A program made the position numbers and the translations under genes. A stretch of 64,000 nucleotides of DNA, taken from contig NZ_MDEC01000008.1 of assembly GCF_002939785.1 (NCBI RefSeq), positions 1-64,000 on the forward strand, read 5' to 3'. Under the pieces are notes generated by a model. That model ran no database searches, was not told the DNA's origin, and worked only from the letters and a program-made list of their open reading frames with translations. Source of the stretch: Xanthomonas codiaei (lineage in GTDB: Bacteria; Pseudomonadota; Gammaproteobacteria; Xanthomonadales; Xanthomonadaceae). Positions 17,817 through 38,938 of this stretch are shown one piece after another. Position 1 is the stretch's first letter; every line of letters begins with the position of its first letter.

Positions 17817-17845
17817 TAGGTGCCCGCGAGCGGGCAAAAGGTTGC
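17817..17845 (-). promoter_or_regulatory. ECF-type promoter of the sigma / anti-sigma / protease / ccm operon
   Basis: Read on the minus strand: GCAACC (17845-17840), 16 bases, then GCACCTA (17823-17817). Spacing and both boxes match five other intergenic sites in the window. It fits in the 51-base gap before the sigma factor gene, so the operon is probably self-activated. Confidence 0.75.
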
Positions 17846-17852
17846 GGTTGGA

Positions 17853-18824
17853 TCAAAAGCTGCGCGAGACCATGCCCACCCACGGCGTCTCGCCCGGGCC
17901 GCCCTGCGCGCGCGGGGTGTTGTTGCTGGTCAGTACCCGGTCCAGCTTCACCGTCCATGCCGCGCGGTTCCATGTCAGGCCCAGTTGCCCATACCGATAG
18001 CGGCCGGAACTCGGTGCGCCGTAGGCCATGGCCGGGAAATCCGAGACGCCGGCGCCTGCCGAAAGGCTGAACCTGGCCGACAGCGGAATGCTGGCGGTGA
18101 CGTCGACCGCAGTGATCCACAGCGAGCGCTGGGCACGCGGGAAGTTGAAGGTGGACAGCGAGAAGGTCAGCAGGTCGCGGTAGGACCAGGCCAGGCTCGC
18201 TTCCTGGCGGTCGAAGCTGCGCGACTGGCGGTCGGCCGGATAGGCGTAGTACAGCAGGCTGGCCTGCATCTGCCAGCGGTCGTTCAGCATCCAGCCACGC
18301 GCACCCTGCAACGTGAGCGCCACCGGCCTGCTGAAGGAGGGCGATTGCAACGCCGCGGAGGCCGACATCGACCAACCGGGTGCGGGCAGCCAATAGCCGG
18401 CCGCCTGCAGGGTGACGCGATTGGGGGCGATGGAGATGCCGCGGTCGATCAGGGTCGAGGCGACCGCGACCGCGCCGCCCAGACTATCGGCCAGCGCGCT
18501 GCCGCAGGGGCTGGCCATCAGCGCGAGCAGCAGTCCCCGGCGCAGCCGCGAGCGGCGAAGCAGCCGCCGCCGGCAGTGCGGGTGTGTGCAGCGTGGGCCG
18601 GCGGAAAGGAGTCGGTGGCGCCGCGACGCTGCGCCTGTGGCGGACCATGGCTGCCCGTCGCAGGCGCAGTGGCGGCGCGTTCGCAAGAGGGCCTGCTTGG
18701 TAGGCAAAACGTTCGGCAAGGGCGTTGGATATCGGCACGGAGCGGGGCGCGATAGTGACCCATCACGCAGCACGAGACCGCCGCAGCTGCGACGGTTCGG
18801 TCCGTATACGCGAAGAGACTGCAT
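17853..18824 (-). CDS. Putative outer-membrane beta-barrel protein (TorF-like porin)
   Basis: The well-supported part is the last 240 residues or so. A signal-peptide-like segment (hydrophobic core LLLALM, cleavage after SALA, about 18490-18530) is followed by alternating aromatic/polar strands ending in a C-terminal Phe, as in outer-membrane barrels. The first strands (STLIDRGI) recall the TorF/TIGR02001 family. The start is uncertain: the nearest in-frame ATG that keeps the signal peptide is 18824, but the sequence between it and the signal peptide is low-quality, so a non-ATG start near 18560 is more likely. It lies between the cytochrome genes and the sigma operon on the same strand. Confidence 0.55.
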   Translation of the reverse strand: MQSLRVYGPNRRSCGGLVLRDGSLSRPAPCRYPTPLPNVLPTKQALLRTRRHCACDGQPWSATGAASRRHRLLSAGPRCTHPHCRRRLLRRSRLRRGLLLALMASPCGSALADSLGGAVAVASTLIDRGISIAPNRVTLQAAGYWLPAPGWSMSASAALQSPSFSRPVALTLQGARGWMLNDRWQMQASLLYYAYPADRQSRSFDRQEASLAWSYRDLLTFSLSTFNFPRAQRSLWITAVDVTASIPLSARFSLSAGAGVSDFPAMAYGAPSSGRYRYGQLGLTWNRAAWTVKLDRVLTSNNTPRAQGGPGETPWVGMVSRSF

Positions 18825-18904
18825 CGCGCAACGCGGTCCCGCCCGGCTGCGCGGTGCGGCTGCGGGGGGCTGCGGATGCCCACGGCAGGGGCGACGGCTC
18901 GTCG

Positions 18905-18932
18905 GCCGTGCCTGACTTGATGCAGGCACGGC
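18905..18932. repeat. Perfect inverted repeat, possible terminator or attenuator
   Basis: A 10-bp perfect stem (GCCGTGCCTG / CAGGCACGGC) with an 8-base loop lies about 120 bases downstream of the cytochrome c gene on the minus strand. No T-tract follows. It may terminate or process the cytochrome transcript before the porin gene. Confidence 0.4.
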
Positions 18933-19053
18933 GGTGTGCGACGCGCTCATCCCCCGCGAGCGCCGAACCCGGCCCAACACGCCGTCGCCGGCATCTCCCG
19001 CCTCGCCATCGGCGCCGTGCCGGCCGCCGTGGCGCTGTCCCGCCCGGCGCGGA

Positions 19054-19443
19054 TCAGTGCAGGGTGTTGAGGTAGGCGATCAGGGCGTCCAGTTCCTTTT
19101 CGTCTTCCAGGCCCTCGTACTTCATCTTGGTGCCGGGCAGGGCCTTCTTGGAATCCTGCTTGAGAAAGCTTTTCAGGCTGGCCGCATCCCAGGTGCGCTT
19201 GCTCGCCTTGAGTTCCGGCGAGTAGCCGCTGAAGTCCGCCACGGTGCCGGCTTGACGGTTGACGATGCCGAACAGGGAGGGGCCCTTCTTGTTCTTGCCT
19301 TGGGTGGCGCTGTGGCATTCGGCGCATTCTGTGGTGAACACGCTCTTGCCATCGGCGGCACGTGCCGGCGTGGACAGGGTGGTACCGGCCAGCAGCAGCC
19401 CGGCCAGCGAAGCGCACATCAGGGTCTTGTTGAATGGATGCAT
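19054..19443 (-). CDS. Class I c-type cytochrome (c2/c550 type)
   Basis: A 129-residue protein with a Sec signal peptide (cleavage after ARA, about residue 29), one haem site CAECH (Cys40-His44) and a likely axial Met107 in GTKMKY. It is a soluble periplasmic electron carrier of cytochrome c2 type. It lies 35 bases downstream of the outer-membrane CxxCH protein and belongs to the b561-led transcript. Maturation would need the Ccm proteins encoded at 10.0-15.2 kb. Confidence 0.9.
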   Translation of the reverse strand: MHPFNKTLMCASLAGLLLAGTTLSTPARAADGKSVFTTECAECHSATQGKNKKGPSLFGIVNRQAGTVADFSGYSPELKASKRTWDAASLKSFLKQDSKKALPGTKMKYEGLEDEKELDALIAYLNTLH

Positions 19444-19478
19444 GTGGGTCCGTACGGTTGCGTGCAACGTGGGGGAGA

Positions 19479-20825
19479 TCAGAACATCAGGTTGACCGAC
19501 ACCGTGAAGCTGTCGAGATCGCGCGGATTGGTGATCGGCGGGCCGCGGAACACGTTGGACGTGCTGCCGTTGAACTTGTCGAAGCGGAACCAGCCGGCGG
19601 ACAGGCGCAGGTTGGCCATCGAGGTATAGGTGCCGTCCTTGCCGAACGGGGTCCAGTACAGCAGGATCAGATTGCTGGTGGTGTCGGGAATGCCCACTGG
19701 CGAGTACCGCGCCGCATCGAACGAGCCGGTGTTGATCATGTGCGCGGCCAGCACGCCATAAGTCTGTTTGTAGGCATAGTTCACGCTGAAGGTCTGATCG
19801 CGCACGCTGCCGCGTTCCAGCGCAGGCATGGTCGGGTCGGAAGGAATCAGTGGGCTGCCGTACTTGCGCCGCTCGTAGATGTTGACGTAAGCCAGCGACG
19901 CCACGTGTTCGCGGGTGCCGAGGAATTGATAGGTCAGGTCGTAGCCGAAGTCGGTGAGATCGTCGCTGGGCCCGTTGCGCGGACGCTGCCGGCGCGTGTT
20001 GAGCGCGGTCAGGCCGACCGAGAAGAACTGCCGCTTCATGTCCTTCATATAGGCCAGGCGTGCATAGCTGGTGTCGCTGAGCTTGCCCGGGTCGCCGTTG
20101 ATCGGCCAGCCGAGGCGATCCTGCGCCGAGGGCGACAGCGCGCTGTAGCTGCCCACCTCGCCGTACCAGTTCTTGTCGTACAGGCCGTACACGCTGGCGC
20201 CGATGACGCGGTTGGACAACGCCGAGGAGCTGAGCATCGTCGATGCACCGCCGTTGGAGGCCGGGGTCAATGTGGAGGCGTTGGGCAGCACATGGATCGG
20301 GTCGGAAATGCCCGGATTGTTGTTGACGCTGACACCGATCATGGTGTCCTTGCCGGCCATCTCGAACGGCTTGCTGACAAAGCGCAGGTCCACATCGTCC
20401 AGGCGCGTATCGAAGGTGGCATTGCCGCTGTTGGTGGAGCGGATCTTGGAGTAACCGCCCACGTTGTCGCTGACCCGGCCGGCCAGATACAGATCGGCCT
20501 GGCGCAGGCGCGCGGTGCTGTCGCCGCGGCTGGGGTTGTTGCGCGACCAGGTGAGCTGGCCGGAAACCGGAATCTTGGTGCCCTCGCCATTGGTATCGGT
20601 GAAACCGCCCAGCTTGAAACGCATGCCGTAGGGCGTGAGCGAGGGGCCGTAGGAACCGATATGGCAATCCGCGCACGAAGAGCCGGTCTGGCGAGCGAAT
20701 GAGGGGATGGCCTGTGCCTGCGTGCTGGCCAGCAGCAACAGCGGGCCGGACACGCACAACAAGGACGTCAGGGAGACAGTGCGCGATGCGGCGGCACGGT
20801 GCGGAGCAGGCTGGGGAGTAGGCAT
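19479..20825 (-). CDS. Outer-membrane barrel protein with one N-terminal c-type haem motif
   Basis: A 448-residue protein. The signal peptide is cleaved after AQA (about 39), then comes the segment PSFARQTGSSCADCH with haem site Cys51-His55. A long region of alternating beta-strands follows and ends in Phe, indicating an outer-membrane barrel. Proteins with this N-terminal signature exist in several proteobacteria as presumed outer-membrane electron conduits or porins; no substrate is established. AAGGAC precedes ATG 20825. It sits between cytochrome b561 and cytochrome c genes, so an electron path from inner to outer membrane is plausible but unproven. Confidence 0.8.
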   Translation of the reverse strand: MPTPQPAPHRAAASRTVSLTSLLCVSGPLLLLASTQAQAIPSFARQTGSSCADCHIGSYGPSLTPYGMRFKLGGFTDTNGEGTKIPVSGQLTWSRNNPSRGDSTARLRQADLYLAGRVSDNVGGYSKIRSTNSGNATFDTRLDDVDLRFVSKPFEMAGKDTMIGVSVNNNPGISDPIHVLPNASTLTPASNGGASTMLSSSALSNRVIGASVYGLYDKNWYGEVGSYSALSPSAQDRLGWPINGDPGKLSDTSYARLAYMKDMKRQFFSVGLTALNTRRQRPRNGPSDDLTDFGYDLTYQFLGTREHVASLAYVNIYERRKYGSPLIPSDPTMPALERGSVRDQTFSVNYAYKQTYGVLAAHMINTGSFDAARYSPVGIPDTTSNLILLYWTPFGKDGTYTSMANLRLSAGWFRFDKFNGSTSNVFRGPPITNPRDLDSFTVSVNLMF

Positions 20826-20896: not shown

Positions 20897-21517
20897 TCAT
20901 GCGTGCTTGCCCGGCAGCACGCGGCGCAGCAAGCCGTCGCGCAACACCAGGTGGTGCCAAAGCGCGGCGCCGATATGCACCAGCACCAGGGCCAGCAGCG
21001 CCCAGGCGGCGTTCAGATGCCAGGCGCCCAGGGTGTCGCCCAGGTCTGCATCGGCTTCCACCAGGTTGGGCAGGGCCAGGCCGAACAGATAGACCGTCTT
21101 GCCGAAGGCATTGCTGAGCGACCAGCCGATCAGCGGCAATGCGAGCATCAGGCCGTACATCGCCAGATGGGTGGTGCCGGCGGCCAGGCGCATGAGCAGC
21201 GATGCGGGCGGGCCGGGCGGCAGGGAGCGCAGCCGCAGGCGCAGGCCCACCCGCAGCACGAACAACAGCAGCACCATCAGGCCGAAGTGACGATGGCCTT
21301 CCAGCAGCCACTGGCGCAGTGCGCGCCCATCCAGTTCGGCACGCAGCAGGATCAAGCTGGCCGCCATCACCAGGCACAGCACCGTCAGCCAGTGCAGTAC
21401 GCGCATGGATTTGGGTAGTGGAATGACGCGCGCGGCCGGCGCTGCCTGGTCCGGCAACGGCCGCGTGGCGGCACTGGCGGTGGCTGTCGCGTCGGGCGCC
21501 TGAGGGGGTGAACGCAT
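20897..21517 (-). CDS. Cytochrome b561 family membrane protein
   Basis: A 206-residue integral membrane protein with four helices and histidines placed for two b-haems (candidates His42, His75/77, His117, His167, His181). The first 36 residues are a Pro/Ala-rich cytoplasmic extension. The family moves electrons between quinol and periplasmic acceptors. It is first in the order b561 - outer-membrane CxxCH protein - cytochrome c, with a leader of about 100 bases behind an ECF-type promoter. Confidence 0.87.
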   Translation of the reverse strand: MRSPPQAPDATATASAATRPLPDQAAPAARVIPLPKSMRVLHWLTVLCLVMAASLILLRAELDGRALRQWLLEGHRHFGLMVLLLFVLRVGLRLRLRSLPPGPPASLLMRLAAGTTHLAMYGLMLALPLIGWSLSNAFGKTVYLFGLALPNLVEADADLGDTLGAWHLNAAWALLALVLVHIGAALWHHLVLRDGLLRRVLPGKHA

Positions 21518-21628
21518 CTGGTCGGTATCCTCACCGGTGGTGGTCGTTGGTTCCGGCAGTCCGCAGTGCGCTGCCAGGCCTGGCTCCCCACGCCGGCCGA
21601 CAGCAGCGGCCAGGTGAACGTGCATCGA

Positions 21629-21657
21629 TATGTGCGGCGATGCCGATGAAAGGTTGC
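21629..21657 (-). promoter_or_regulatory. ECF-type promoter of the cytochrome b561 operon
   Basis: Minus-strand GCAACC (21657-21652), 16 bases, GCACATA (21635-21629). It is identical in spacing to the sigma factor's own promoter. Transcription would begin near 21620, giving a leader of about 100 bases. Confidence 0.75.
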
Positions 21658-21758
21658 ATCGCGCCAACGAATTTTTATCGCTTCGCTGCGTGACCCACGA
21701 GGCATAGCACCGGCTGCTGCGCTTGCGCGGACGCCGTTTCGCAGGGCCGTAACACCGC

Positions 21759-21787
21759 GCAACCTTTCGCACATCCCGGCGCACTCA
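21759..21787 (+). promoter_or_regulatory. ECF-type promoter of the FdtA-led glycan cluster
   Basis: GCAACC (21759-21764), 16 bases, GCACTCA (21781-21787). Predicted start of transcription is about 21794, roughly 38 bases before the ATG of the isomerase gene. It is divergent from the cytochrome promoter. Confidence 0.75.
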
Positions 21788-21831
21788 GGCATGTCGCACT
21801 AAGTGCAGTCAGCGGTTACGCCCACCCGACC

Positions 21832-22269
21832 ATGGCCTTCGAACCCATCCAGTTGCATACCCACGGCGACGATCGCGGCTCGCTCGTTTCGTTGGAGCAG
21901 CAGCGCAATGTCCCGTTCGAGATACGTCGTGTGTACTACCTGTTCGGCACCCGTGGCGGCGTGCATCGCGGCCAGCACGCCCACCGTCAGCTCAACCAGC
22001 TGGCCGTGGCCCTGCATGGCTCGGTGACGATTCTGCTGGACGACGGCAAGGGCGATGGCCCGACCGAGGTACGCCTGGACGACCCATCGCAAGGCTTGCT
22101 GCTGGGACGCATGGTGTGGCGCGACCTGCACCATTTCAGCCCCGATTGCGTGCTGATGGTGCTGGCCGATCAGTACTACGACCCGGGCGATTACATCCTG
22201 GATTACGACCAGTTCCTGCGCGAGGTGCGTGGCGAACTTTGCATCCATGACCGCAGGCTGGAAGCATGA
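21832..22269 (+). CDS. FdtA/QdtA-type dTDP-4-keto-6-deoxyhexose 3,4-ketoisomerase
   Basis: A 145-residue cupin of the WxcM-C/FdtA family. The central motif RGQHAHRQLNQ supplies the catalytic histidines (His49, His51). These enzymes convert dTDP-4-keto-6-deoxyglucose to the 3-keto isomer, the step before amination to Fuc3N or Qui3N. The pathway continues with the DegT-type aminotransferase at 24803 and an acyltransferase such as the one at 22266. The genes for dTDP-4-keto-6-deoxyglucose (rmlA, rmlB) are not in the window. It is first in a tightly overlapping operon. Confidence 0.85.
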   Translation: MAFEPIQLHTHGDDRGSLVSLEQQRNVPFEIRRVYYLFGTRGGVHRGQHAHRQLNQLAVALHGSVTILLDDGKGDGPTEVRLDDPSQGLLLGRMVWRDLHHFSPDCVLMVLADQYYDPGDYILDYDQFLREVRGELCIHDRRLEA

Positions 22270-22937
22270 GTGCGCGCAAACCGCTGGTGATCGTCGGGGC
22301 GGGCGAGTTCGCACAGATCGCCTGCGAATACTTCCAGCACGATAGCGACTACGAAGTGGTGGCCTTCAGCGTGGAGCGCGACTATCTGCTGCGGCCCACG
22401 CTGGCCGACCTGCCGGTGGTGGCTTACGAGGAACTGGAGCAACGGTATCCGCCTGGCCAGTACGAGGCGTTCGTCGCCATTCCCGCGACCCAGTTGAATC
22501 GCCTGCGCAGGCGGTTCTATCAGGACATGCAGCAACGCGGCTACCGTTGCGCCAGCTACGTCAGCTCGCGCGCCTTCGTGTGGCGCAATGCGCAGATCGG
22601 CGCGAACTGCTTCATCTTCGAGGGCAATGTCGTCCAGCCGTTCACCCGCATCGGCGACAACTGCATCCTGTGGAGCGGCAACCATATCGGTCATCGCACC
22701 GTGGTGCAGGATCACGTGTTCATTGCATCGCATGCAGTGATCTCCGGCTATTGCGACATCGGGCAGGGCAGCTTCATCGGCGTCAACGCCACGCTCAGCG
22801 ACAAGGTACGCATTGCCGCAGACAACATCATCGGCGCCGGGGCGCTGGTGACCCGGCACACCGAAGCCGGCCGCGTGTATGTCGGTTCGCCGGCACGCGC
22901 GGTGGCCGGCCGGTCCAGTTTCGACGTGGAGCTCTGA
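22266..22937 (+). CDS. NeuD-family sugar O/N-acyltransferase (hexapeptide repeat)
   Basis: A 223-residue protein. A Rossmann-like N-terminal half (start LVIVGAGEFAQIACEY) is followed by a left-handed beta-helix of hexapeptide repeats (about 95-215), the NeuD/PglD architecture that acetylates aminosugars using acetyl-CoA. In this context the likely substrate is the 3-amino-3,6-dideoxyhexose made by the FdtA/FdtB-type pair. Its ATG overlaps the stop codon of the isomerase gene. Confidence 0.82.
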   Translation: MSARKPLVIVGAGEFAQIACEYFQHDSDYEVVAFSVERDYLLRPTLADLPVVAYEELEQRYPPGQYEAFVAIPATQLNRLRRRFYQDMQQRGYRCASYVSSRAFVWRNAQIGANCFIFEGNVVQPFTRIGDNCILWSGNHIGHRTVVQDHVFIASHAVISGYCDIGQGSFIGVNATLSDKVRIAADNIIGAGALVTRHTEAGRVYVGSPARAVAGRSSFDVEL

Positions 22938-22942
22938 AGCCC

Positions 22943-23896
22943 ATGTTCGACTGGATCAAGCGCGGCCTGGTGTTCGATGTGGCACGCGATGGCGTCGGCG
23001 GCTGGATGCAGCACGCGGCACTGACGCCGACGCCATACCGGCTGTCTGCGCAGACCCTGCGGGTGTATGCGGGTTTCCGCGATGCGCACGGCGTGAGCCG
23101 GATCGGTTATGTGGATGTGCGTGCGGATGCGCCTACCCAGATTGTCGGCGTCAGCCGCGAGCCGGTGCTGGACATCGGGCGCGATGGCTGCTTCGACGAC
23201 AACGGCATGATCCTGGGCGATGTAGTGGCCGGGCCGGATGGCCTGTACATGTTCTACGTAGGCTTCCAACGCGTGGCCAAGGCGAAGTTCCTCGCGTTCA
23301 CCGGCCTGGCGGTGTCGCGCGACGGCGGCGGCACGTTCCAGCGTCGCCAGGAAACGCCGCTGCTGGACCGCGCGCCCGGCCGCAGCACGATCGCCGCGGT
23401 GCACTCGGCACGTTACGAAGATGGACGCTGGCGGCTGTGGTACGCGGTGGGCGACGACTGGGAAACCATCGCGGGCCAGCCGTATCCGCGTTACCACATC
23501 CGCTATGCGCAGACCGATGACCTGGCCTGCATCTGCGGCGACGATCATGTCTGCCTGCGTCCGCGCGACGACGAATACCGCATCGGCCGCCCGCGCGTTT
23601 ACCGGCTTGGCGAGCGTTACCTGATGTACTTCACCCGCGGCGACACGCGCGGTGGCTACTTCCCCGGCATCGCCTTCAGCCGCGATGGTCTGCACTGGGA
23701 GCGCGACGATGGCCAGCTCGGGCTGCAATTGTCCGAGGAGGGCTGGGATGCGCAGACGCTGTGCTACCCGGCATTGATCCAGCAAGGCAATTGCGTACTG
23801 ATGTTCTACAACGGCAATGCGATGGGGCATGCCGGCTTTGGCCTGGCCGATGCGGCGCTGCCGGCGGAACTGCAGGGCGGCCATGTATTCGGTTAG
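22943..23896 (+). CDS. Glycosidase-like five-bladed beta-propeller protein
   Basis: A 317-residue cytoplasmic protein without a signal peptide. Repeated segments of the type DGLYMFYVGF, GRWRLWYAVG, YLMYFTRG and CVLMFYNGNA mark the five-bladed propeller of GH43/GH130/GH32-like proteins. Glycan-cluster members of this group might act as phosphorylases or be catalytically inactive; I cannot identify a substrate. The gene begins six bases after the acyltransferase stop and overlaps the next gene by 14 bases. Confidence 0.7.
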   Translation: MFDWIKRGLVFDVARDGVGGWMQHAALTPTPYRLSAQTLRVYAGFRDAHGVSRIGYVDVRADAPTQIVGVSREPVLDIGRDGCFDDNGMILGDVVAGPDGLYMFYVGFQRVAKAKFLAFTGLAVSRDGGGTFQRRQETPLLDRAPGRSTIAAVHSARYEDGRWRLWYAVGDDWETIAGQPYPRYHIRYAQTDDLACICGDDHVCLRPRDDEYRIGRPRVYRLGERYLMYFTRGDTRGGYFPGIAFSRDGLHWERDDGQLGLQLSEEGWDAQTLCYPALIQQGNCVLMFYNGNAMGHAGFGLADAALPAELQGGHVFG

Positions 23897-24815
23897 GCCC
23901 TATCGTGCCGGCGATGCATCTGCGTGGGACGCACTGGTGGCGAGCTCGCGCAATGGCAACCTGCTGCATCGGCGCGGATATATGGACTACCACGCCGACC
24001 GCTTCGCCGATGCGTCGTTGCTGGTGGAGCGCGGTGGCGAGGTGATTGCGGTGTTTCCTGCGAGCGTGCAGGGCGGCTGCGTCAGCAGCCATGCCGGGCT
24101 CACCTATGCCGGCCTGGTGTCGTCGATGGCGATGCGGGCCGGTGCGGCCCTGCAGGTGTTCGAGCAGATCGCCACGCATTACCGGGCCGCAGGCGCGCAG
24201 GAGATCGTCTACAAGCCAGTGCCGCATGTCTTCCATGCGTACCCGGCGGAAGAGGAGCTGTACGCCCTGCATCGGGTGGGCGCGCAGGTGTATCGGCGCG
24301 ACCTGTCGTCGGTGATCGCGCTGCGCCAGCCGTTCGCCTTCAGTGCCGAGCGGCGGCGGTCGATCGCCAAGGCGCGCAAGGCCGGCGTGCAGGTCCAGAC
24401 CACTAGCAGTCTTGAGGCCTTTCATGCATTGCTGACCGAGGTGCTGCAGCGCCATGGCGTGGCGCCGACCCACCGGCTGGACGAACTGCAACTGCTGCAG
24501 CTCCGGTTCCCGCATCACATCGTGCTGCACGAGGCGCGCGCGGGCGGGCAGTTGCTGGCAGCGGCGCTGGTGTACGACTTCGGCCGCAGTGTCCACACCC
24601 AGTATCTGGCCGTCTCCGAACCGGGGCGCCGGCTGGACGCGCTGAGCCTGCTGCTGGCCGAGCTGATCACCCAGGTGTACGCAGGGCGCGACTACTTCAG
24701 TTTCGGGATTTCAACCGAGCAGGGCGGGCAGGTGCTCAATGAGGGCCTGGTTGAACAGAAGGAGCGCTTCGGCGCGCGTGCAGTGGTACAGGATGTCTAT
24801 CGATGGACTTTGTAA
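23883..24815 (+). CDS. FemAB/GNAT-fold acyltransferase-like protein
   Basis: A 310-residue protein. The second half has the features of the Acetyltransf_6 (BioF2/FemAB-like) domain: a basic RRRSIAKARKAG stretch (about 158-169) and a terminal region SFGISTEQGGQVLNEGLVEQK. Such proteins often occur in polysaccharide clusters and may attach an acyl or aminoacyl group to a sugar. It overlaps the propeller gene by 14 bases and ends inside the aminotransferase start region. Confidence 0.72.
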   Translation: MYSVRPYRAGDASAWDALVASSRNGNLLHRRGYMDYHADRFADASLLVERGGEVIAVFPASVQGGCVSSHAGLTYAGLVSSMAMRAGAALQVFEQIATHYRAAGAQEIVYKPVPHVFHAYPAEEELYALHRVGAQVYRRDLSSVIALRQPFAFSAERRRSIAKARKAGVQVQTTSSLEAFHALLTEVLQRHGVAPTHRLDELQLLQLRFPHHIVLHEARAGGQLLAAALVYDFGRSVHTQYLAVSEPGRRLDALSLLLAELITQVYAGRDYFSFGISTEQGGQVLNEGLVEQKERFGARAVVQDVYRWTL

Positions 24816-25927
24816 TGGATGTGCCTTTCCTGGATCTGCGTGCAACCAACGCACGCTACGCGAACGAGCTCAAGGCCGCGGCCGCGCGCGTGATCGATGC
24901 CGGCTGGTATGTGCTTGGCCAGGAGCTGGCCGCATTCGAGGACGAATTCGCCCGCTATTGCGGCGGCGCGCATGCGGTTGGCGTGGGCAACGGGCTGGAT
25001 GCGTTGTCGCTGATCCTGCGTGGGTATCGCGAACTGGGCGTGTTGCGCGAAGGCGACGAAATCATCGTGCCGGGCAACACCTTCATCGCGACGTTTCTGG
25101 CGATCAGCCAGAACCGGCTGGTGCTGGTGCCGGTGGAGCCGGACCCGGCCACCTTCAACATCGATGCGGCCAGCGTGGAAAAGGCCATCGGGCCCCGCAC
25201 GCGCGCCATCATGGCAGTGCATCTGTATGGCCAGCTGGCCGATATGGCGGGCCTGCAGAGGCTGGCGCACCGGTACGGGCTGCTACTGATCGAAGATGCC
25301 GCGCAGGCGCATGGCGCCACCGCGCACGGAACCCGCGCGGGCGCCTTCGGCGATGCGGCAGCCTTCAGCTTCTTTCCCACCAAAAATCTTGGGGCGCTGG
25401 GCGATGGCGGTGCCGTGGTGACCTCCGATGCGCACCTGGCCGAGCGCATCCGCGCACTGCGCAACTACGGTTCCGAGGTGAAGTACCACCACCTGCATCA
25501 GGGCGTGAATTCGCGCCTGGACGAGCTGCAGGCCGCCTTGCTGCGGGTCAAGCTGACCTATCTGGACGAGGAGATTGCATTGCGGCGTGCGGTGGCGCAG
25601 CGCTATCTGCAGGAGATCGACAATCCGTTGATCAGCCTGCCGGCGGTGGCCTCCGTCGAGCAGCATGTGTGGCATCTGTTCGTGGTGCGCAGCGCGCAGC
25701 GCGACGCCTTGCAGGCGCATCTGCTGCAGTGTGGCATCCATACCCAGATCCATTACCCGGTGCCGCCACACCGGCAGCCGGCGTACGCCACCCTGGGAGA
25801 CGTCTGCCTGCCGCTGAGCGAGCAGTTGCATCGCGAAGTGCTGAGCCTGCCGATGGGTCCGGCGCTGGATGCGGCATCGGTGGAGCGGGTGATTGCCGCT
25901 TGCCAGACCTTCGGCGCCCGCGCATGA
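24803..25927 (+). CDS. FdtB/QdtB-type PLP-dependent sugar aminotransferase
   Basis: A 374-residue DegT/DnrJ/EryC1-family enzyme. The PLP-binding Lys is visible as Lys194 in FFPTKNLGALGDGG, and the cofactor Asp lies in LIEDAAQAHGA (about 164). With an FdtA-type isomerase in the same operon, the expected reaction is transamination of a dTDP-3-keto-6-deoxyhexose to dTDP-Fuc3N or Qui3N. ATG 24803 has an AGGA nine bases upstream; ATG 24815, overlapping the previous stop (TAATG), is an alternative. Confidence 0.87.
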   Translation: MDFVMDVPFLDLRATNARYANELKAAAARVIDAGWYVLGQELAAFEDEFARYCGGAHAVGVGNGLDALSLILRGYRELGVLREGDEIIVPGNTFIATFLAISQNRLVLVPVEPDPATFNIDAASVEKAIGPRTRAIMAVHLYGQLADMAGLQRLAHRYGLLLIEDAAQAHGATAHGTRAGAFGDAAAFSFFPTKNLGALGDGGAVVTSDAHLAERIRALRNYGSEVKYHHLHQGVNSRLDELQAALLRVKLTYLDEEIALRRAVAQRYLQEIDNPLISLPAVASVEQHVWHLFVVRSAQRDALQAHLLQCGIHTQIHYPVPPHRQPAYATLGDVCLPLSEQLHREVLSLPMGPALDAASVERVIAACQTFGARA

Positions 25928-29254: not shown

Positions 29255-29294
29255 GCGCGGCGATTCCACCCTCCTGTTCCAGAGCCTGCGCCCC

Positions 29295-31254: not shown

Positions 31255-31266
31255 GTGGAGAGCCCA

Positions 31267-32487
31267 ATGGCCATGGCCGATGTCTGTATGCAGGGCGCGC
31301 GCGCGATCACCCTGGCTGGGGTGTCGCACGTGGCGGTCAACATGCGCAATGGCCGCTTCGGCGGTACGGTGGGCACCGGAACCTTGCGGCTGGATCTGCA
31401 GGGCCATGTGCTGGCGCCGGGCCTGATCAATGCGCATGAGCACTTGCAGGTCAACTGCGTCCCACCGCTGCCGCAGGTGGCGCCGTTCGCCAACAGCTAT
31501 GCGTGGATCGAGGCGTTCCAGGCGCATTTCCAGCACCCCGAGGTGGCCGCGGCGCTGCGTGTGCCCAAGGCGGTACGGCTGCGTCACGGCGGCTTGAAGA
31601 ATCTGCTCGCCGGCGTGACCTGCGTGGCGCAGCACGACCCCTGGCACGCCACCCTGGATGAAGCCGGGTATCCGGTAAGCGTGCTGCGTGAGTTCGGTTG
31701 GAGCTACGCGCTGGGCTGGACAGGCTACGGGCCGCCGGTGCAGGGCAGCTTTGCGGCCACGCCGTCGGCGCATCCATGGATGATCCACCTGGCCGAAGGC
31801 ACCGATGCGGTGGCGCGCGCCGAGCTGGACGACCTCGACCGGCTCGGCTGCCTGGCATCCAATACGGTGCTGATCCACGGCGTGGGGATGGGCGAGCAGG
31901 ACATCGAACGGGTCATCGCGCGCGGTGCGGCCGTGGTGTGGTGCCCGTCGAGCAATCTGAACCTGCTCGGTCGTACCCTGGACCCCTGGCGCCTGTGCAT
32001 GGCCGGGCGGCTGGCGCTGGGCAGCGATTCGCGCGTGAGCGGCTCGCGCGATCTGCTCGACGAATTGCTGGTCGCCGCCGACAGCGGCCTGGCGCCGGAT
32101 CTGCTGCTTGGCCTGGTCACCGAGCACGCGGCACGCATCCTGCGGACGGCATCGCGCGGGCGTATCGCGCCTGGCGCGGTTGCGGACCTGATGATCGTGC
32201 GCGACCGCGGCGGCGAGCCCGCCAACAGCATCATCGGTTGCGATCGCAGCGCATTGCGCGCCGTGATCCGCGACGGCAAGCCACGCATTGCCGATCCGGA
32301 TTTCGCGCCGTGGTTCGATGCCGCCGGCATCCAGAACGTGCCGGTGCTGCTGGACGGCCGTCCCAAGTTGCTCGACGCCGCGCTGGCGGATCCGGCGGTG
32401 CTGGCACTGGAACCGGGTCTGCAGTGCGTACAGCGCGCAACGCCTTCGGCATCTGACGCGCTGCTCGCCATCGGGGTCGCGTCGTGA
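31267..32487 (+). CDS. Metal-dependent amidohydrolase
   Basis: A 406-residue enzyme of the amidohydrolase superfamily (ATZ/TRZ, cytosine- and guanine-deaminase-like branch). Metal ligands are visible: His57 and His59 (HEHL), His174 (IHLAEG), His204 (IHGVG) and Asp254 (GSDSR). It would remove an amino group or cleave an amide or cyclic C-N bond; the substrate is unknown. The last 60 residues after the barrel are not typical. ATG 31267 has GGAG six bases upstream and is preferred to GTG 31255. A hydrolase of this type between two methyltransferases in a glycan locus is unusual. Confidence 0.8.
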   Translation: MAMADVCMQGARAITLAGVSHVAVNMRNGRFGGTVGTGTLRLDLQGHVLAPGLINAHEHLQVNCVPPLPQVAPFANSYAWIEAFQAHFQHPEVAAALRVPKAVRLRHGGLKNLLAGVTCVAQHDPWHATLDEAGYPVSVLREFGWSYALGWTGYGPPVQGSFAATPSAHPWMIHLAEGTDAVARAELDDLDRLGCLASNTVLIHGVGMGEQDIERVIARGAAVVWCPSSNLNLLGRTLDPWRLCMAGRLALGSDSRVSGSRDLLDELLVAADSGLAPDLLLGLVTEHAARILRTASRGRIAPGAVADLMIVRDRGGEPANSIIGCDRSALRAVIRDGKPRIADPDFAPWFDAAGIQNVPVLLDGRPKLLDAALADPAVLALEPGLQCVQRATPSASDALLAIGVAS

Positions 32488-33182
32488 GCGCGGTGCCGGT
32501 CCTCGATCCAGTGGATGCGTATGCACTCTGGGCGCAGGCGTATCCGCCGCATGCGCACAATCCGGTGATGCTGGCCGAAGAGCGCGCCATGCTCGGCCTG
32601 ATGCCGGCGGTGCTGCAGGGGCAGCATGTGCTGGATGCAGGCTGTGGCAGCGGCCGTTACATGTTTCATGCCTTGCGGCGGGGTGCGCGGCACGTCACCG
32701 GCGTCGATCTGTCGCCGCAGATGCTGCAGCGTGCCGGTACCGAACTGGCGCAGCACTGGCCAGCTGGGCGGGTGAGCCTGCAGCAGGGCAGCCTCGATCG
32801 GTTGCCGCTCGCCGATGCGATGGCCGATTTCAGTGTCTGCGGGCTGGTGGTCGGGCATCTGCCGCGACTATGGCCGGCGCTGGAAGAGCTGCACCGCGTC
32901 ACCCGTCCCGATGGCATCGTGCTGTGCAGCGACGTGCACCCGATCGGCGATGCGCTGGGGTGGCGCCGCGATTTCAAGGCCGACGGTCGCCATTACGCCG
33001 TGCGTCACACCCAGCACCTGTATAGCCACTGGCATGCGGCCTGCACGGCATTGGGCTTTGCGATCGAAGCCGTCGCCGAGCCGATGCTGGACCCGGACGA
33101 TATTCCCGCTGGTGCGCATTTCGACCAGATGGCGCTGCAGGTCCCGGTGGCCCTGGTGCTGCGGCTGCGGCGCGTCGCGTGA
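32484..33182 (+). CDS. SAM-dependent methyltransferase (Methyltransf_11 type)
   Basis: A 232-residue enzyme with SAM-binding motif LDAGCGSGRY (about 50-59), motif II VTGVDLSPQML and a PLADAMADF segment. The GTG start overlaps the stop of the amidohydrolase gene (GTGA), so the two are translated together. The acceptor is unknown. It belongs to the branch that includes UbiE/UbiG-like small-molecule methyltransferases. Confidence 0.82.
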   Translation: MSAVPVLDPVDAYALWAQAYPPHAHNPVMLAEERAMLGLMPAVLQGQHVLDAGCGSGRYMFHALRRGARHVTGVDLSPQMLQRAGTELAQHWPAGRVSLQQGSLDRLPLADAMADFSVCGLVVGHLPRLWPALEELHRVTRPDGIVLCSDVHPIGDALGWRRDFKADGRHYAVRHTQHLYSHWHAACTALGFAIEAVAEPMLDPDDIPAGAHFDQMALQVPVALVLRLRRVA

Positions 33183-33297
33183 ACGACGTGGTGTATCCGC
33201 AGTGGCGCCGCGCGGCGCTCGCCACCGGTCTCCCGCTGCAGTGCTACGGACCTGCGCGTCGTGGCGTGCACGTCCATCGCGCGTTGCTGTGCAGCCC

Positions 33298-34428
33298 ATG
33301 ACCTTGCATGTGGCCCAGCTCAATCTGGTGGCGACTCCCGATGGCCTGAGCATCGAGCAGGTGTTCGCGCACTGGCCGTCGCTGGCCGACATCGCCGAAG
33401 CGGTGGCCAGTGCGGGTATCCGCGTGTCGGTGATTCAGGCCTCCGCGCTGGAGGCACGCTTGTCGCGGCACGGCGTGGCCTATCGTTTTACCGCCCTTGG
33501 CCTGCGTGGCAGCGCTGCACGCGCCAGCGCGCTGCAGGCACTGCTGCAGGAACTCGACGTCGATGTGATCCATGTGCATGGCCTGGAGTTCGCTGGCGAT
33601 GCGCGACGGCTTGCGCGTGAGCTGCCGCATACGCCGGTCCTGCTGCAGGATCATGCCAATCGTCCGCCGCGCTGGTGGAGCCGCATGGTGTGGCGTGCGC
33701 GCTACCGTGCCGCTGCCGGAATCGCATTCACCTCGCTGGAACTGGCGCGGCCGTTCCAGCGCGCTGGTCTGTTCGGTGCCGCCACGCAGCTGTTTGCCAT
33801 TCCCGAATCCAGCAGCCGCTTCACACCGGGCGCACAGGCGCTGGCGCGCGAGCAGACCGGCCTGCACGGCGATCCCTGTGTGGTGTGGGTGGGTCATCTG
33901 AGCCCGGCCAAGGATCCCCTGTGCGTGCTCGATGCGATCGCCCTGGCCGCACGCGTCGTGCCCGGCCTGCGCCTGTGGTGCGTGTTCGACCAGGCGCCGC
34001 TGCTGGCGCAGATCCAGCAACGCCTGCGCGATGATCCGCTGCTGGCGCGCTGCGTGCATTTGCTGGGCAAGGTGGAGCATGCGCACGTGCAGACCCTGCT
34101 GCAGGCCAGCGACATCTTCGTCTCTGCCAGCCATACCGAAAGCTGCGGCTACGCGGCGCTGGAAGCCTATGCCTGCGGCAGCCTGCCGCTGCTGACCGAT
34201 ATCCCGGCGTTTCGTGCGCTCAGCGCTGCCGGCGCGGTGGGCGAACTCTGGCCGGTGGGCGATGCCGCCGCGCTGTCGGAACTGCTGGTGCGCGCAGCGC
34301 GGCAGCGGCCCAGCCGGGCGCACGTGCGCGCGCATTTCGATGCACACCTGTCGTTTGCCGCAGTGGGGCGGCAATGGGCCCGGGCCTACGCCAGTCTGCT
34401 GGGCCACGCGCAGGGGACCACGCGATGA
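33298..34428 (+). CDS. Family 4 glycosyltransferase (GT-B)
   Basis: A 376-residue GT-B enzyme. The N-terminal half holds a VIHVHGLEFAG segment, and the C-terminal half has VVWVGHLSPAKDP and the E-x7-E type donor site ESCGYAALEAYACG. ATG 33298 follows a 115-base gap with no other gene. It overlaps the next glycosyltransferase by four bases. Donor and acceptor are not evident. Confidence 0.85.
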   Translation: MTLHVAQLNLVATPDGLSIEQVFAHWPSLADIAEAVASAGIRVSVIQASALEARLSRHGVAYRFTALGLRGSAARASALQALLQELDVDVIHVHGLEFAGDARRLARELPHTPVLLQDHANRPPRWWSRMVWRARYRAAAGIAFTSLELARPFQRAGLFGAATQLFAIPESSSRFTPGAQALAREQTGLHGDPCVVWVGHLSPAKDPLCVLDAIALAARVVPGLRLWCVFDQAPLLAQIQQRLRDDPLLARCVHLLGKVEHAHVQTLLQASDIFVSASHTESCGYAALEAYACGSLPLLTDIPAFRALSAAGAVGELWPVGDAAALSELLVRAARQRPSRAHVRAHFDAHLSFAAVGRQWARAYASLLGHAQGTTR

Positions 34429-35537
34429 AGCTGGCGCTGGTGGTGCCGGGAGGGGTGGACCGCAGTGGCGAGATCCGCGTGATTCCGGTGTTCCTGACCT
34501 TGATCGAATGGCTGGCGCGCCATCACGAGGTGCATGTGTTCGTCCTGCATCAGGAGCCGCTGCCGGCCACCTGGATGCTGCGCGGTGCCAGGGTGCACAA
34601 CATCGGTGAGCGGCGCACGCGCCTGCGTGCAGTGGCGGCCATCGTCGAGGAACACCGGCGCGCGCCGTTCGATGTGATCCAGGCGATCTTCTCCGGCTAC
34701 TGCAGCCTGATCGCCGTCCTCGCGGCGCGGCTGTTGCGGCGTCCCAGTGTGGTGCATATCGCCGGCGGTGAACTGGTGGCGTTGCATGCGATCGGCTACG
34801 GCGGCCGCCGGCGTTGGCGTGGGCGCCTGCGCGAAGCGGTGATCCTGCGCCTGGCCGACCGGGTGACCGCTGCCAGTGAACCGATCATTGCCTCCCTGCA
34901 GGCGCTGGGCCTGCGCGCGCAGCGGGTGCCGTTGGGCGTGGATCTGCGCGCATGGCCGGCGGCGGCGCCCCGTGCCCGCCACGATGCGAGCGCACGTTTG
35001 CTGCATGTGGCCAGCCTCAATCCGGTCAAGGATCAGCGCACCTTGCTGCAGGCAATGGCCGCGCTCAAGCGCGCCGGCGTCGCCTTTACGCTGGACATGG
35101 TCGGCGTCGATACGCTGGACGGTGCCATGCAGCGTCTGGTGCAGCAGCTCGGCCTGCAGGAGCAGGTGCGCTTCCTCGGCTTCAGGACCCAGCGCGAATT
35201 GCGCCCGCTCATGCTATCGGCCGATCTGCTGGTGCTGTCCTCGTTGCATGAAGCCGGCCCCATGGTGTTGCTGGAAGCCGCCGTTGCCGGCGTTCCCACC
35301 GTCGGCACCGCGGTTGGGCATCTCACCGAGTGGGCACCGGTTGCAGCGTTGGCGGTTGCGCCAGGCGATTGGGCGGGCATGGCCGAGGCCATCCGGCAGG
35401 TGCTTGGCGACGACGAACTGCGCCTGCGCCTGGCATGGGCCGCGCAATGCCGCGCGGTTCGCGAAGATGCGGCGTTCACCACACGCCAGTTCGAACACCT
35501 TTACCGCCAGCTCTGCGAGCAGCGACCGCTGCGCTGA
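34425..35537 (+). CDS. Family 4 glycosyltransferase (GT-B)
   Basis: A 370-residue GT-B enzyme starting LALVVPGGVD. It has an acceptor-domain segment VVHIAGGELV, a RLLHVASLNPVKDQ nucleotide-domain start and the donor motif HEAGPMVLLEAAVAG. It is the last gene of the methyltransferase-led operon, overlapping the previous glycosyltransferase. It is distinct from, and not a duplicate of, the upstream enzyme. Confidence 0.87.
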   Translation: MKLALVVPGGVDRSGEIRVIPVFLTLIEWLARHHEVHVFVLHQEPLPATWMLRGARVHNIGERRTRLRAVAAIVEEHRRAPFDVIQAIFSGYCSLIAVLAARLLRRPSVVHIAGGELVALHAIGYGGRRRWRGRLREAVILRLADRVTAASEPIIASLQALGLRAQRVPLGVDLRAWPAAAPRARHDASARLLHVASLNPVKDQRTLLQAMAALKRAGVAFTLDMVGVDTLDGAMQRLVQQLGLQEQVRFLGFRTQRELRPLMLSADLLVLSSLHEAGPMVLLEAAVAGVPTVGTAVGHLTEWAPVAALAVAPGDWAGMAEAIRQVLGDDELRLRLAWAAQCRAVREDAAFTTRQFEHLYRQLCEQRPLR

Positions 35538-35789: not shown

Positions 35790-37004
35790 TCACGCCGGCT
35801 GCAGATATCCATCCAGCGCCGCACGCACCACGTACAGCATGTCGGTGCGCGGAACCGGGCGGGTCAGCCGCGTCATCAGCCGGCGTGCCTGGGTCTGGCG
35901 CACCCAGGGCTGATCCTGTAGCCAGAGTTGGGTCTGCAGCATGTCGGCACGCTCCTTGCGGCACTCCGCCGATGGCACCACGCGTTCGCGCAGGTACTGC
36001 CGCGCCTCGCTCAACGAACCCGACCACTCGATCCCGGGCAGGGCCGACAGCCACAGGTTGGAGCACGAGGCGGTGGTGAGCGTCTGCCGGGCGGCACGCA
36101 GGCGCAGCAGGCGCGGGCACTCGGCGTGCAGCCGCGCCATGACCTGCGCCGGCACCACCGCGCGGTAGTAACGCTGCAGCAACTGCAACGGCGGCAACGC
36201 CCACCACGGCGACACCGCCGGGTCTTCCCATAACTGCTGCCAATCGCGTGGGCCCATGCGGGTGGTCAGCAACGCAAGATCGTGCAGATGCATCAGCCGG
36301 ATGCTGCGATGGCAGATGCCTCCGGCTGCGTGCAGCAGCAGGTGGCACATCAGGGCGCCAATGGAAGGATAGGGGTTCAGGCCCGGCTGTGCGTGCTCCG
36401 GCCAGATGCGTGCGGTGATATCCACGCTGCGCACCGGCAGGCGCTCCTGGATGCGCGTGTGCACTTCGATGTTGATGGGGGCATCGCGGTGCTCGCCCAA
36501 TCCGGCCACCGCATCGCCCTGCACCGGCTTGAACACCTGGTGCTTCCATTGCTGGAACGAGGCCTCATACCCCAGCTCGCACAACAGCGCGGCCGTGGCG
36601 AGCGCGTCCTCTGGCGCCACCAGCAGGTCGATATCGGCCATCGGACGATCACCGGGCAGGTACACGCCCAGCCGATGCAGGGCGGTGCCCTTCAATCCCA
36701 CCAGCGCGATGCCGGCGTTGCGCGCGGCGCTGTCGATGCGGCTCAGCAGTAGCGCGATACGCCGGTGGCGGTCTTCGACATGCTGGCGTTGCTCGTCCAG
36801 GAAGCTGTTCCAGTGCGCGTTCTGCCACAACGAGCGGCGCTGCAATAGCGGCGACACGCCATGTGCCGCCGCTGCCGCCGCGGCCAGCTGCCACTGCAGC
36901 CGGTCCCATTGCGGCGAATCGTCGCCCGGCTGCGCCAGCTCGTGCGCGAGCCGCTCGGTGGCCGTGTGCAGGCCGTGTCGGATGGTACGAAGCGAAGGCT
37001 GCAT
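35790..37004 (-). CDS. Nucleotidyltransferase-fold protein (NTP_transf_5 type)
   Basis: A 404-residue protein. A nucleotidyltransferase core is seen at about 98-130: VGLKGTALH, then RPMADIDLLV with the paired metal-binding Asp124 and Asp126. The remainder is helical. Proteins of this family occur next to HPr-kinase-like genes in exopolysaccharide/exosortase and some lasso-peptide loci, where their role is not established. It follows the radical SAM gene on the same strand after 244 bases. ATG 37004 is chosen; the frame stays open upstream through a tandem repeat, which is probably not coding. Confidence 0.75.
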   Translation of the reverse strand: MQPSLRTIRHGLHTATERLAHELAQPGDDSPQWDRLQWQLAAAAAAAHGVSPLLQRRSLWQNAHWNSFLDEQRQHVEDRHRRIALLLSRIDSAARNAGIALVGLKGTALHRLGVYLPGDRPMADIDLLVAPEDALATAALLCELGYEASFQQWKHQVFKPVQGDAVAGLGEHRDAPINIEVHTRIQERLPVRSVDITARIWPEHAQPGLNPYPSIGALMCHLLLHAAGGICHRSIRLMHLHDLALLTTRMGPRDWQQLWEDPAVSPWWALPPLQLLQRYYRAVVPAQVMARLHAECPRLLRLRAARQTLTTASCSNLWLSALPGIEWSGSLSEARQYLRERVVPSAECRKERADMLQTQLWLQDQPWVRQTQARRLMTRLTRPVPRTDMLYVVRAALDGYLQPA

Positions 37005-37073
37005 GCGGGCGTGATCCGGGAGGTCGAAGGGGCGGGGAGGTGCTACGAGTCGGTGGCGGTACTGCACGGTGGT

Positions 37074-37105
37074 GGCGTATCGGCGTATCGGCGTATTGGC
37101 GTATC
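37074..37105. repeat. Short tandem repeat, four 8-bp units
   Basis: Four units of GGCGTATC (the third ends in T) lie head to tail in the 244-base gap between the radical SAM and nucleotidyltransferase genes. The array could change length by slippage; it lies 70-100 bases upstream of the nucleotidyltransferase ATG. Confidence 0.7.
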
Positions 37106-37248
37106 GGCCTGGCGATGGCGCTGCCGCGCGCCACGATTGCGTCGGGTGCGTCGGTTGCCTTGGCGGGGTGGCAATCCCGATCGCCCGGGTTGGCGATGTC
37201 GCGATGCACACCCGTCCGTTTCGCGTTCGCCGGCAGATTCAGGAGACG

Positions 37249-38748
37249 CTAGCCCACCAGCACCGTGGCCAACGGCCGTGATGGCCGTGATGGCCGTGCG
37301 GGCAGGGTGGCAAGCGGTTCGGTGCGGTGCAGCTGTTCGGAGGCGATCAACGCGGACCAGCGCGCTTCCAGCTGCTCGCAGGCCTGCGCAACGGCGTCGG
37401 CCGTCATCGTGCCCCGCGCCTGCTGCAGGTCCACCTGGGCGTGCAACAGATCGCGCACGCTGCGGTAGAACTCCGAGTCGTAGGCGCCATGGAACATCAT
37501 CGCCAGGTCGTCGCTGTCCTGCCAATGCGTCTTGCCGCCGAGCTGGTTCTTCACTTCTTCGTAGAACTTGGTGCCGGGCAACGGATACGACACGCTGACG
37601 CCGATGATGTCCGGATTGGCCTGGCTCACCAATGCGCGCGTGGCCAGGATGTCTTCGAGTTCTTCGCCCAGATAGCCCAGCTGGATGAAGAAACCCACGC
37701 GGATTCCATGCGCGCCCAGTCGCTGGCGGGCGGCGATCACCCCGGCCACGTCGGTGCCCTTGGTCATCCTGTCGAGGATGCGCTGGCTGCCGCTTTCCGC
37801 ACCGATCCAGGCCTCTGCACACCCGGCGCGCGCCAGTGCCGCGGCCATGCGTTCGCTGGCCAGATCCGCGCGGGTCTGGATGGTGAATGGAATCGCACCA
37901 TCGGCCTCGCTCAGGCGCTGCGCAAATGTCTCCACCCAATCGATATGAAAGCCGAAGATGTCGTCGGCCATCCACAGGTGATCGGGCTGGAAGTTGCGCT
38001 TGAGATGGATCATTTCGGCGGCCACGTCCTCGGCGCCGCGACGGGTGTAGTGGTTGCCCCAGATCGGCTTGGCGCACCAGTTGCAACGGAACGGGCAACC
38101 GCGCGAGGCGGCCATGTTCAGGCTGAAATAGCCGTGTCGCTGCCGCCAGAAGCGTTGGTAGCGCGGCATGTCGACCAGGTCCCAGGCCGGTAGGCCGCTC
38201 AGGCGCGGATCCGGTGGCTGCGCACCCGGATGCGCGCGTACCGCCGTCGGATCGCTGCTGGCGATGCGCGCGACACCGGCCAGCCAGGCCTGCGTGTCGA
38301 TCTGCCGATTGCGTTCGACCCGCTCGATCAATTCGATCAACGGCGCGATGCCTTCGCCGATCAATACCGCATGCGCACCGGCGGCCAGGAACGCGTCCGG
38401 GTTGTCGGAGGCATCCGAGCCCGCCACCAACACACGGCAGCCGGCCGCGCGCGCCTGTCCGATCATGCGGCAGGCCGCCTCGCGCATGCGGCTCAGGCAC
38501 ATCTTGGTGAGGAAGTTGAAGTTGTCCTCGTAGAACACCACCAGCTCCGGCTGCGCATCGTGCAGCGCGCCGGCGTAGTCCTCGACGCCGTCGGCCAGCA
38601 TGGCGTCGAACAGGCTCACGGCATGCCCGCGCTCGCGCAGCAATGCCGCGATCTGCAAGGTGGCCAGCGGCGGGTAAGGCTTGCCGCGCTCCCATTGCTT
38701 GGGGTCGTAACGCAGGAAATACGAATGACTGACCTGGATCTTTAGCAT
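37249..38748 (-). CDS. B12-binding radical SAM enzyme
   Basis: A 499-residue enzyme. Residues 1-150 form a cobalamin-binding Rossmann domain of the BchE/HpnJ type, without a clear DxHxxG motif. Residues 205-410 form the radical SAM barrel with cluster motif CPFRCNWC (Cys218, Cys222, Cys225). A C-terminal helical region follows. Class B relatives methylate unactivated carbons or rearrange carbon skeletons of lipids, tetrapyrroles, peptides or antibiotics; the substrate here is unknown. The first 30 residues include a proline-rich YPPLATLQIAALLRERGH motif typical of the B12 domain. It is transcribed divergently from the HPr-kinase-like gene. Confidence 0.87.
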   Translation of the reverse strand: MLKIQVSHSYFLRYDPKQWERGKPYPPLATLQIAALLRERGHAVSLFDAMLADGVEDYAGALHDAQPELVVFYEDNFNFLTKMCLSRMREAACRMIGQARAAGCRVLVAGSDASDNPDAFLAAGAHAVLIGEGIAPLIELIERVERNRQIDTQAWLAGVARIASSDPTAVRAHPGAQPPDPRLSGLPAWDLVDMPRYQRFWRQRHGYFSLNMAASRGCPFRCNWCAKPIWGNHYTRRGAEDVAAEMIHLKRNFQPDHLWMADDIFGFHIDWVETFAQRLSEADGAIPFTIQTRADLASERMAAALARAGCAEAWIGAESGSQRILDRMTKGTDVAGVIAARQRLGAHGIRVGFFIQLGYLGEELEDILATRALVSQANPDIIGVSVSYPLPGTKFYEEVKNQLGGKTHWQDSDDLAMMFHGAYDSEFYRSVRDLLHAQVDLQQARGTMTADAVAQACEQLEARWSALIASEQLHRTEPLATLPARPSRPSRPLATVLVG

Positions 38749-38824
38749 CTGCACAAGGCTCTCGTTCTGTCGCCAGGTGGCGCGCAGCGGCGGCGTGCGC
38801 AGACACCGGCATTCGGCTCGGCAG

Positions 38825-38853
38825 TAGGTGCGCGCACAGGCGTCTTTGGTTGC
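38825..38853 (-). promoter_or_regulatory. ECF-type promoter of the radical SAM operon
   Basis: Minus-strand GCAACC (38853-38848), 16 bases, GCACCTA (38831-38825), the same -10-like box as in front of the sigma factor gene. The predicted leader to ATG 38748 is about 70 bases. Confidence 0.7.
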
Positions 38854-38909
38854 GCCGCTGCGTTGCGCATGGCGGTGACAGGGTGCATCCGCGCATCGCG
38901 CACGGCGAT

Positions 38910-38938
38910 GCAACCTTCGCACCTGCCCTCGGCACATA
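38910..38938 (+). promoter_or_regulatory. ECF-type promoter of the HPr-kinase-like/ABC operon
   Basis: GCAACC (38910-38915), 16 bases, GCACATA (38932-38938). Transcription would begin near 38946, which makes GTG 38950 an unlikely start and supports ATG 38959 or 38968 for the downstream gene. Confidence 0.75.

Follow-up and report, generated by a model that had tools for sequence, protein, structure and literature searches.

Six promoter-like sites and a putative self-regulated ECF sigma factor regulon in one gene cluster of Xanthomonas codiaei

We analyzed a 64-kb window of the Xanthomonas codiaei genome (positions 1 to 64,000 of contig NZ_MDEC01000008.1), which carries a gene for an extracytoplasmic function (ECF) sigma factor at 17208-17801 on the minus strand and six promoter-like sites that this factor very probably reads as a self-regulated local ECF regulon. 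All six sites match the pattern GCAACC-N16-GCACNYA exactly. They lie at 17817-17845 on the minus strand, upstream of the operon of the sigma factor itself (autoregulation); at 21629-21657 (minus), upstream of an operon for cytochrome b561, a Cyc2-like protein and a cytochrome c; at 21759-21787 (plus), upstream of a glycan operon led by FdtA; at 30299-30327 (plus), upstream of a methyltransferase-amidohydrolase-glycosyltransferase operon; at 38825-38853 (minus), upstream of a B12-radical SAM/nucleotidyltransferase operon; and at 38910-38938 (plus), upstream of an operon for an HprK-like protein and an ABC exporter. A sequence-only reading of the window had placed six promoters at these positions and strands, and our scan recovered exactly these six and no other match at zero mismatches. 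By gene calling the sites are intergenic, as that reading had also claimed, and each aims at a start codon 15-111 bases downstream when 21517 is taken as the b561 start; mechanical open reading frames overlap some of them, for example 21385-21792, which has no Pfam match. The members of the regulon would be the sigma, anti-sigma, subtilase and cytochrome c maturation (ccm) genes, the b561, Cyc2-like and cytochrome c genes, four operons for the making and export of a modified glycan, and perhaps the gene g17853. That the sigma factor uses these sites, and where the operons end, we infer from the sequence.

In 100 dinucleotide shuffles of the window, the pattern occurred 0.03 times on average and at most once, and six matches were never reached. 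The 5.04 Mb X. codiaei genome (110 contigs), scanned on both strands, contained seven exact matches, six of them in the window, against one for a backwards-read control. A chance origin of the six sites was rejected on the basis of these shuffle and genome-wide counts. Other box spacings remained at chance level, with one match at a spacing of 17 and two at 15 when up to one mismatch was allowed (1.53 and 1.57 expected in the window). At spacing 16 with up to two mismatches, the window showed no enrichment (27 matches against 20.7 expected). The spacer begins with TTT, TTC or AAA in all six sites, and when two A/T bases were demanded after GCAACC the genome total was exactly these six. With the A/T tract and a looser -10 box (GNACNNA), the total was the six plus one. 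Two extra genome matches (C14:65552 and C2:47126) are probably inside genes, since the open frames around them are long (219-455 and 230-595 codons). The predicted promoter is composed of a -35 box, GCAACC followed by an A/T tract, and a -10 box, G[CT]ACNYA, with 16 bases between them, and the putative regulon occupies a single cluster of the X. codiaei genome.

A search with the sigma protein returned 68 loci, two of which (L074 and L075, at 26% and 21% identity) were excluded from later counts. The 66 remaining close relatives comprise 32 loci from Xanthomonas and 34 from other genera (Dyella, Rhodanobacter, Luteibacter, Pinirhizobacter, Frateuria and Lysobacter), with sigma identities down to about 69-77%. 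Alignment of related regions, proposed in the sequence-only reading, bore it out: Xanthomonas, Dyella, Rhodanobacter and Lysobacter have the sites in front of the same genes, while the bases around the sites have diverged. At a strict threshold, a site was found upstream of the sigma gene in 63 of the 66 loci, on the b561 side in 60 of the 65 examined and before fdtA in 58 of the 62 examined; random segments of the same loci passed this threshold in 33, 67 and 93 of 2640 cases for three segment lengths. The presence of the motif upstream of the sigma gene in 63/66 loci is as expected of an autoregulated ECF factor. Box positions carried 1.95-1.96 bits, which is partly due to selection on the boxes, and other positions 0.56-0.68 bits; the A/T-tract positions, which were not selected on, carried 1.47-2.0 bits. 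In a looser count upstream of the sigma gene, the best match agreed at 12 of 12 positions in 26 loci, at 11 in 36, at 10 in two and at nine in two, and the spacing was 16 in 65/66; L055 has no real site there. The six window sites had been described as identical, which holds for their boxes and no further, and in relatives the boxes themselves vary: the sigma promoter reads GCACTGA in 18 of the 32 Xanthomonas loci and GTAC in 13 of the 34 others.

The remaining sites also recur within the genus. A match of the site 4 type is present in same-genus clusters, and the divergent pair formed by sites 5 and 6 recurs as well, in both cases among the genus genomes listed. Among the 17 genomes fully listed (of 35 same-genus genomes), 16 show four to six grouped sites, over two contigs in G012, and one (G010) shows none; the backwards control of the original pattern gave 0-6 matches per genus genome. 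In one genome of the genus, an A/T-tract match lies away from the cluster (G030:C4:177372-177400) and is a possible extra target there.

Across the family, matches were found to follow the sigma gene, with the proviso that these genomes share ancestry and are not independent trials. Of 198 family genomes, 18 have the sigma gene, and at least three matches were present in 16 of these (G222 has two, G220 none). The 180 genomes without the gene had no match in 167 cases, one in 12 and two in one, and none had at least three. The backwards control with the A/T tract gave 0 or 1 match in sigma-bearing genomes. In one other genus, where eight members were sampled, six carry the sigma gene, and the two that lack it (G166 and G237) also lack any match. 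The original pattern in 26 genomes outside the genus gave 18 matches and its backwards control 20, a background level.

The sigma protein (197 amino acids; alternative start at 17789) matched Sigma70 regions 2 and 4 (PF04542, PF08281, PF04545; TIGR02937), so that both ECF regions are present at about 200 amino acids. It is followed by an anti-sigma factor (16561-17211), an S8 subtilase with a prodomain-like N-terminal part (15233-16564; PF00082, alignment and PDB matches) and the ccm genes, all on the minus strand and in series, overlapping or no more than about 60 bases apart; the genes from sigma to ccm would form one transcript. The anti-sigma factor, assigned from a zf-HC2 match, an AlphaFold2 model, VIA-align and hhalign, is laid out as a zinc-type domain, one hydrophobic helix and a periplasmic domain (residues 143-216) that ends at the C-terminus of the protein. 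An HX3CX2C motif lies in the helical N-terminal domain, and H38, C42 and C45 are invariant in 33/33 aligned rows. The hydrophobic helix (100-119) is predicted at a pLDDT (the confidence score of the model) of about 50-60. For the periplasmic domain, AlphaFold2 predicts a beta-alpha-beta-beta-alpha-beta order (strands 147-151, 169-173, 181-185 and 207-212; helices 157-166 and 194-203), an order shared with subtilisin prodomains and I9 inhibitors (BPN' prosegment, POIA1, PC1/3 prodomain). S8 prodomains head the VIA-align list with 27 of 50 rows and 58-72 residues aligned, although the scores of other folds come within 1 Z of theirs. By hhalign the domain is similar to the N-terminal part of the neighboring subtilase itself. 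No match to Pfam I9 was found at E values up to 1, and we therefore call the domain prodomain-like rather than an I9 member; a PDB sequence search gave four matches at E 0.99-1.7 only. Taken from these models, the periplasmic domain seems to resemble the subtilisin prodomain fold. In contrast to the known prodomains, it is borne by an anti-sigma factor and not by a protease, and any binding of the subtilase by it is hypothetical.

The subtilase gene directly follows the anti-sigma gene in 66/66 loci. Its catalytic triad (D202, H235, S385) is intact in 29/29 rows, and the position of the oxyanion Asn, as set by HMMER alignments, holds Pro in 28 rows and Ala in one. The alignments were hand-picked spreads in which the near-duplicate L008 was replaced by the window sequence: A1 holds the window and 32 of the 66 loci, A2 (Cyc2-like proteins) the window and 24 of the 54 loci with that gene, A3 (subtilase) the window and 28 of the 66, after 33 had been picked and L038 (stop codon) and L049, L050 and L060 (doubtful starts) removed, and A4 the window and 22. 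Homolog searches matched 371 and 717 proteins, and the best 120 of each were considered. This anti-sigma/subtilase input lies beyond what the sequence-only reading had described.

If the six sites were not promoters of this sigma factor, they could be operators of a separate DNA-binding regulator, since two-part conserved sites upstream of operons could bind other proteins and the evidence presented here is of sequence alone. The sites are asymmetric, however, and all aim at a gene; their boxes stand exactly 16 bases apart, with an A/T tract behind the -35-like one; matches track the sigma gene across genomes, and the sigma gene carries the same site. We consider operators very unlikely. Promoters of another ECF sigma factor in the same genome are given the same small chance. 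Sigma region 4 is matched 24 times in the X. codiaei genome, and these matches will cover further sigma factors and perhaps regulators of an unrelated kind, but no such site was found at the 14 other loci inspected (nine further matches lay outside this check), and in the family the match groups follow this sigma gene. Conservation of the sites could also reflect nothing but the slow change of a syntenic block, and most of the Xanthomonas loci do show high similarity throughout this block. Against this, flanks average near 0.6 bits and boxes near 2 in relatives down to the lowest sigma identities given above. In addition, of the 12 loci without a Cyc2-like gene, six (L051, L057, L061, L063, L066 and L068) keep the divergent site pair, with the second site facing g17853 directly. 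Slow change as the whole explanation is hence extremely improbable.

A further alternative concerns the input only and is compatible with the regulon: the periplasmic domain of the anti-sigma factor could be a generic ferredoxin-like sensor, with the subtilase as a separate downstream effector. We rate this as a real possibility, somewhat short of even, which has to be set against the lead of prodomains in the structural list, the hhalign likeness to the subtilase's own N-terminal part and the adjacency of the two genes in every locus. In known prodomain-subtilase complexes, the C-terminal tail of the prodomain enters the active site. Under the prodomain-like reading of the input, the membrane-bound zinc-type anti-sigma factor would hold the sigma factor in the resting state, and the neighboring subtilase would engage the prodomain-like domain in the periplasm. 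The sigma factor might then be freed by a partner switch or by a cut in the flexible segment that links the membrane helix to the domain. The output would be a surface glycan made together with a cytochrome path among b561, cytochrome c and the outer-membrane cytochrome-porin, which could run in either direction. In its most specific form, the domain would be a borrowed subtilisin prodomain read by a co-encoded subtilase that lacks the oxyanion Asn, acts mainly as a receptor or as a slow site-1 protease and has a prodomain of its own that competes for the same cleft, and the output would link the glycan to an electron path of the Cyc2 type in the outer membrane, served by heme-attachment genes of its own. 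We offer this version tentatively and regard it as rather unlikely to be right in full.

The closest known kind for the sigma operon are the self-regulated ECF/zinc-type anti-sigma operons of the SigW-RsiW type. Here, in contrast to these, the periplasmic part is prodomain-like, a subtilase gene comes next, the boxes are GCAACC and G[CT]ACNYA, and the apparent regulon sits in one cluster. A self-regulated ECF regulon is in itself of a common kind, while the signaling input looks like a novel version of such a system. Passages of PMC6085468 name X. campestris RpoE1-RpoE10, with RpoE4 as XC_2566, XCC1665 and XAC1682, and Table 2 of that paper has RpoE4 about 93% identical across Xanthomonas and absent from four outside species. 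Because of this identity pattern, the window sigma factor is probably RpoE4, with RpoE3 as the alternative. The same passages report no virulence role for factors other than RpoE1, RpoD and RpoH under the conditions used, and give no regulon for RpoE4. A 2019 review (PMC8042644) states, in the part consulted, that little or nothing is known about the activation of X. campestris ECF sigma factors. Excerpts of the ECF literature have X. campestris ECF22 on record and count 29 promoter motifs for 43 ECF subgroups; a group motif for this sigma factor may already be in print. Within the partial coverage of these sources, we found no account of this regulon, of a prodomain-like anti-sigma domain or of Cyc2 together with this sigma factor. 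One Xanthomonas ECF factor gains a candidate promoter and a testable candidate for its activation device, a prodomain-like domain facing a subtilase, and its candidate targets form a short, closed list. Interest at the bench rests on this domain beside an odd subtilase and on a Cyc2-like path that is apparently co-controlled.

The ccm genes come after the subtilase, spaced no more than about 60 bases apart, and run as ccmC-(D)-E-F-dsbE-ccmH-ccmI at 10019-15222 on the minus strand, by Pfam, with ccmD assigned by position and size only. Pfam matched ccmC-I genes only, and ccmAB are absent from the window set; CcmA was not searched genome-wide. Another CcmF lies on contig C7, as does the only CcmB match of the genome, and identities between the two sets are 32-67%. 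From these comparisons, the window genes are read as a second, diverged cytochrome c maturation set. Both ccmC and ccmF occur in the sigma operon in 31/32 Xanthomonas loci and in 0/34 others, counts in which the sequence breaks off at a contig edge soon after sigma in the sole Xanthomonas exception (L018) and, within about 3.6 kb, in four of the 34 others. L040 is a locus with a ccmI-like match. The proposal that one ECF factor drives its own operon, cytochrome maturation, cytochromes and a glycan system is supported by the sites described above as far as the regulon goes, while its cytochrome maturation part is seen in Xanthomonas only.

The cytochromes named in the sequence-only reading are present and can be specified further. 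On the minus strand lie cytochrome b561 (20897-21517; PF01292, with NF008566 below cut-off), a Cyc2-like fused cytochrome-porin (19479-20825; translation, family alignment and motif check) and cytochrome c (19054-19443; PF00034), which together may carry electrons across the envelope. Translated from 20825, the probable true start, the Cyc2-like protein has a signal-peptide-like start and AIPSFARQTGSSCADCH; its 448 amino acids include AIPSFARQT-GSS-CADCH, a PSL downstream and a C-terminal Phe. Passages of PMC8406198 give AXPXFAR[Q/K][T/Y] with CXXCH as the motif unique to Cyc2, and the protein shares with Cyc2 of iron oxidisers the signal-peptide-like start, AXPXFARQT, CXXCH, a PXL downstream and the C-terminal Phe. 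In contrast to those proteins, the F of the motif is Y in many relatives, the gene stands beside glycan genes, and a 16-strand barrel is putative here. The strict motif was found in 10/25 rows of A2 (window included) and a loose form (F/Y, P/A) in 25/25, as were the heme site and the C-terminal Phe. Three residues separate motif and heme site and five separate heme site and PSL, where the published rule is five upstream and four downstream under an uncertain convention of counting. A crude period-2 hydropathy count did not separate the Cyc2-like protein (20 segments) from a control (16), and a PDB sequence search with the family gave three matches at E 0.25-0.3 only. Cyc2 homologs in Xanthomonas are not new, since the authors of PMC8406198 mention, in the part consulted, that several Xanthomonas sequences were screened out as highly sampled. 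The apparently shared control of a Cyc2-like porin and a surface glycan, in bacteria that live on plants or in soil, would provide a handle on the role of such proteins outside iron oxidisers. To our knowledge, X. codiaei is not known as an iron oxidiser.

The gene g17853 (17853-18518, minus strand) may encode a small outer-membrane protein, given a weak TIGR02001 match far below cut-off. It has no family assignment but adjoins the sigma gene in 66/66 loci; its start is uncertain and probably lies upstream, and a gap of about 0.5 kb separates it, as called, from the cytochrome c gene.

On the plus strand, the glycan operon (21832-30143; Pfam and NCBIfam) encodes FdtA, a NeuD-type acetyltransferase, a protein without family assignment (22943-23896), a GNAT protein, a DegT aminotransferase, a Wzx-type flippase, a GT2 glycosyltransferase, the 28121-29254 product and Wzz. 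The 28121-29254 product is polytopic and Wzy-like by eye and has no family match. Next, also on the plus strand, are genes for a methyltransferase, an amidohydrolase, a second methyltransferase and two GT4 glycosyltransferases (30412-35537; Pfam). The region 35790-41797 holds, behind two divergent sites, genes for an NTP_transf_5 nucleotidyltransferase (35790-37004) and a B12-binding radical SAM protein (37249-38748) on the minus strand, and for an HprK-like protein (38968-40014, below cut-off) and an ABC exporter (40073-41797) on the plus strand, all by Pfam. The combination of HprK-like, nucleotidyltransferase and ABC genes raised the idea of a lasso peptide or other RiPP (ribosomally synthesized and post-translationally modified peptide); the gene caller added no gene here, in an analysis that had no search aimed at a cyclase or a precursor. 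Judged by their predicted products, the four operons resemble a glycan pathway of the Wzx/Wzz type, with modification and export genes. The acetyltransferase, 22943-23896 and GNAT genes (22266-24815) are all without a match in 13/66 loci, nine of which keep fdtA (L010, L012, L014, L024, L026, L031, L047, L048 and L073); loci without the three genes perhaps represent glycan variants behind the same promoter.

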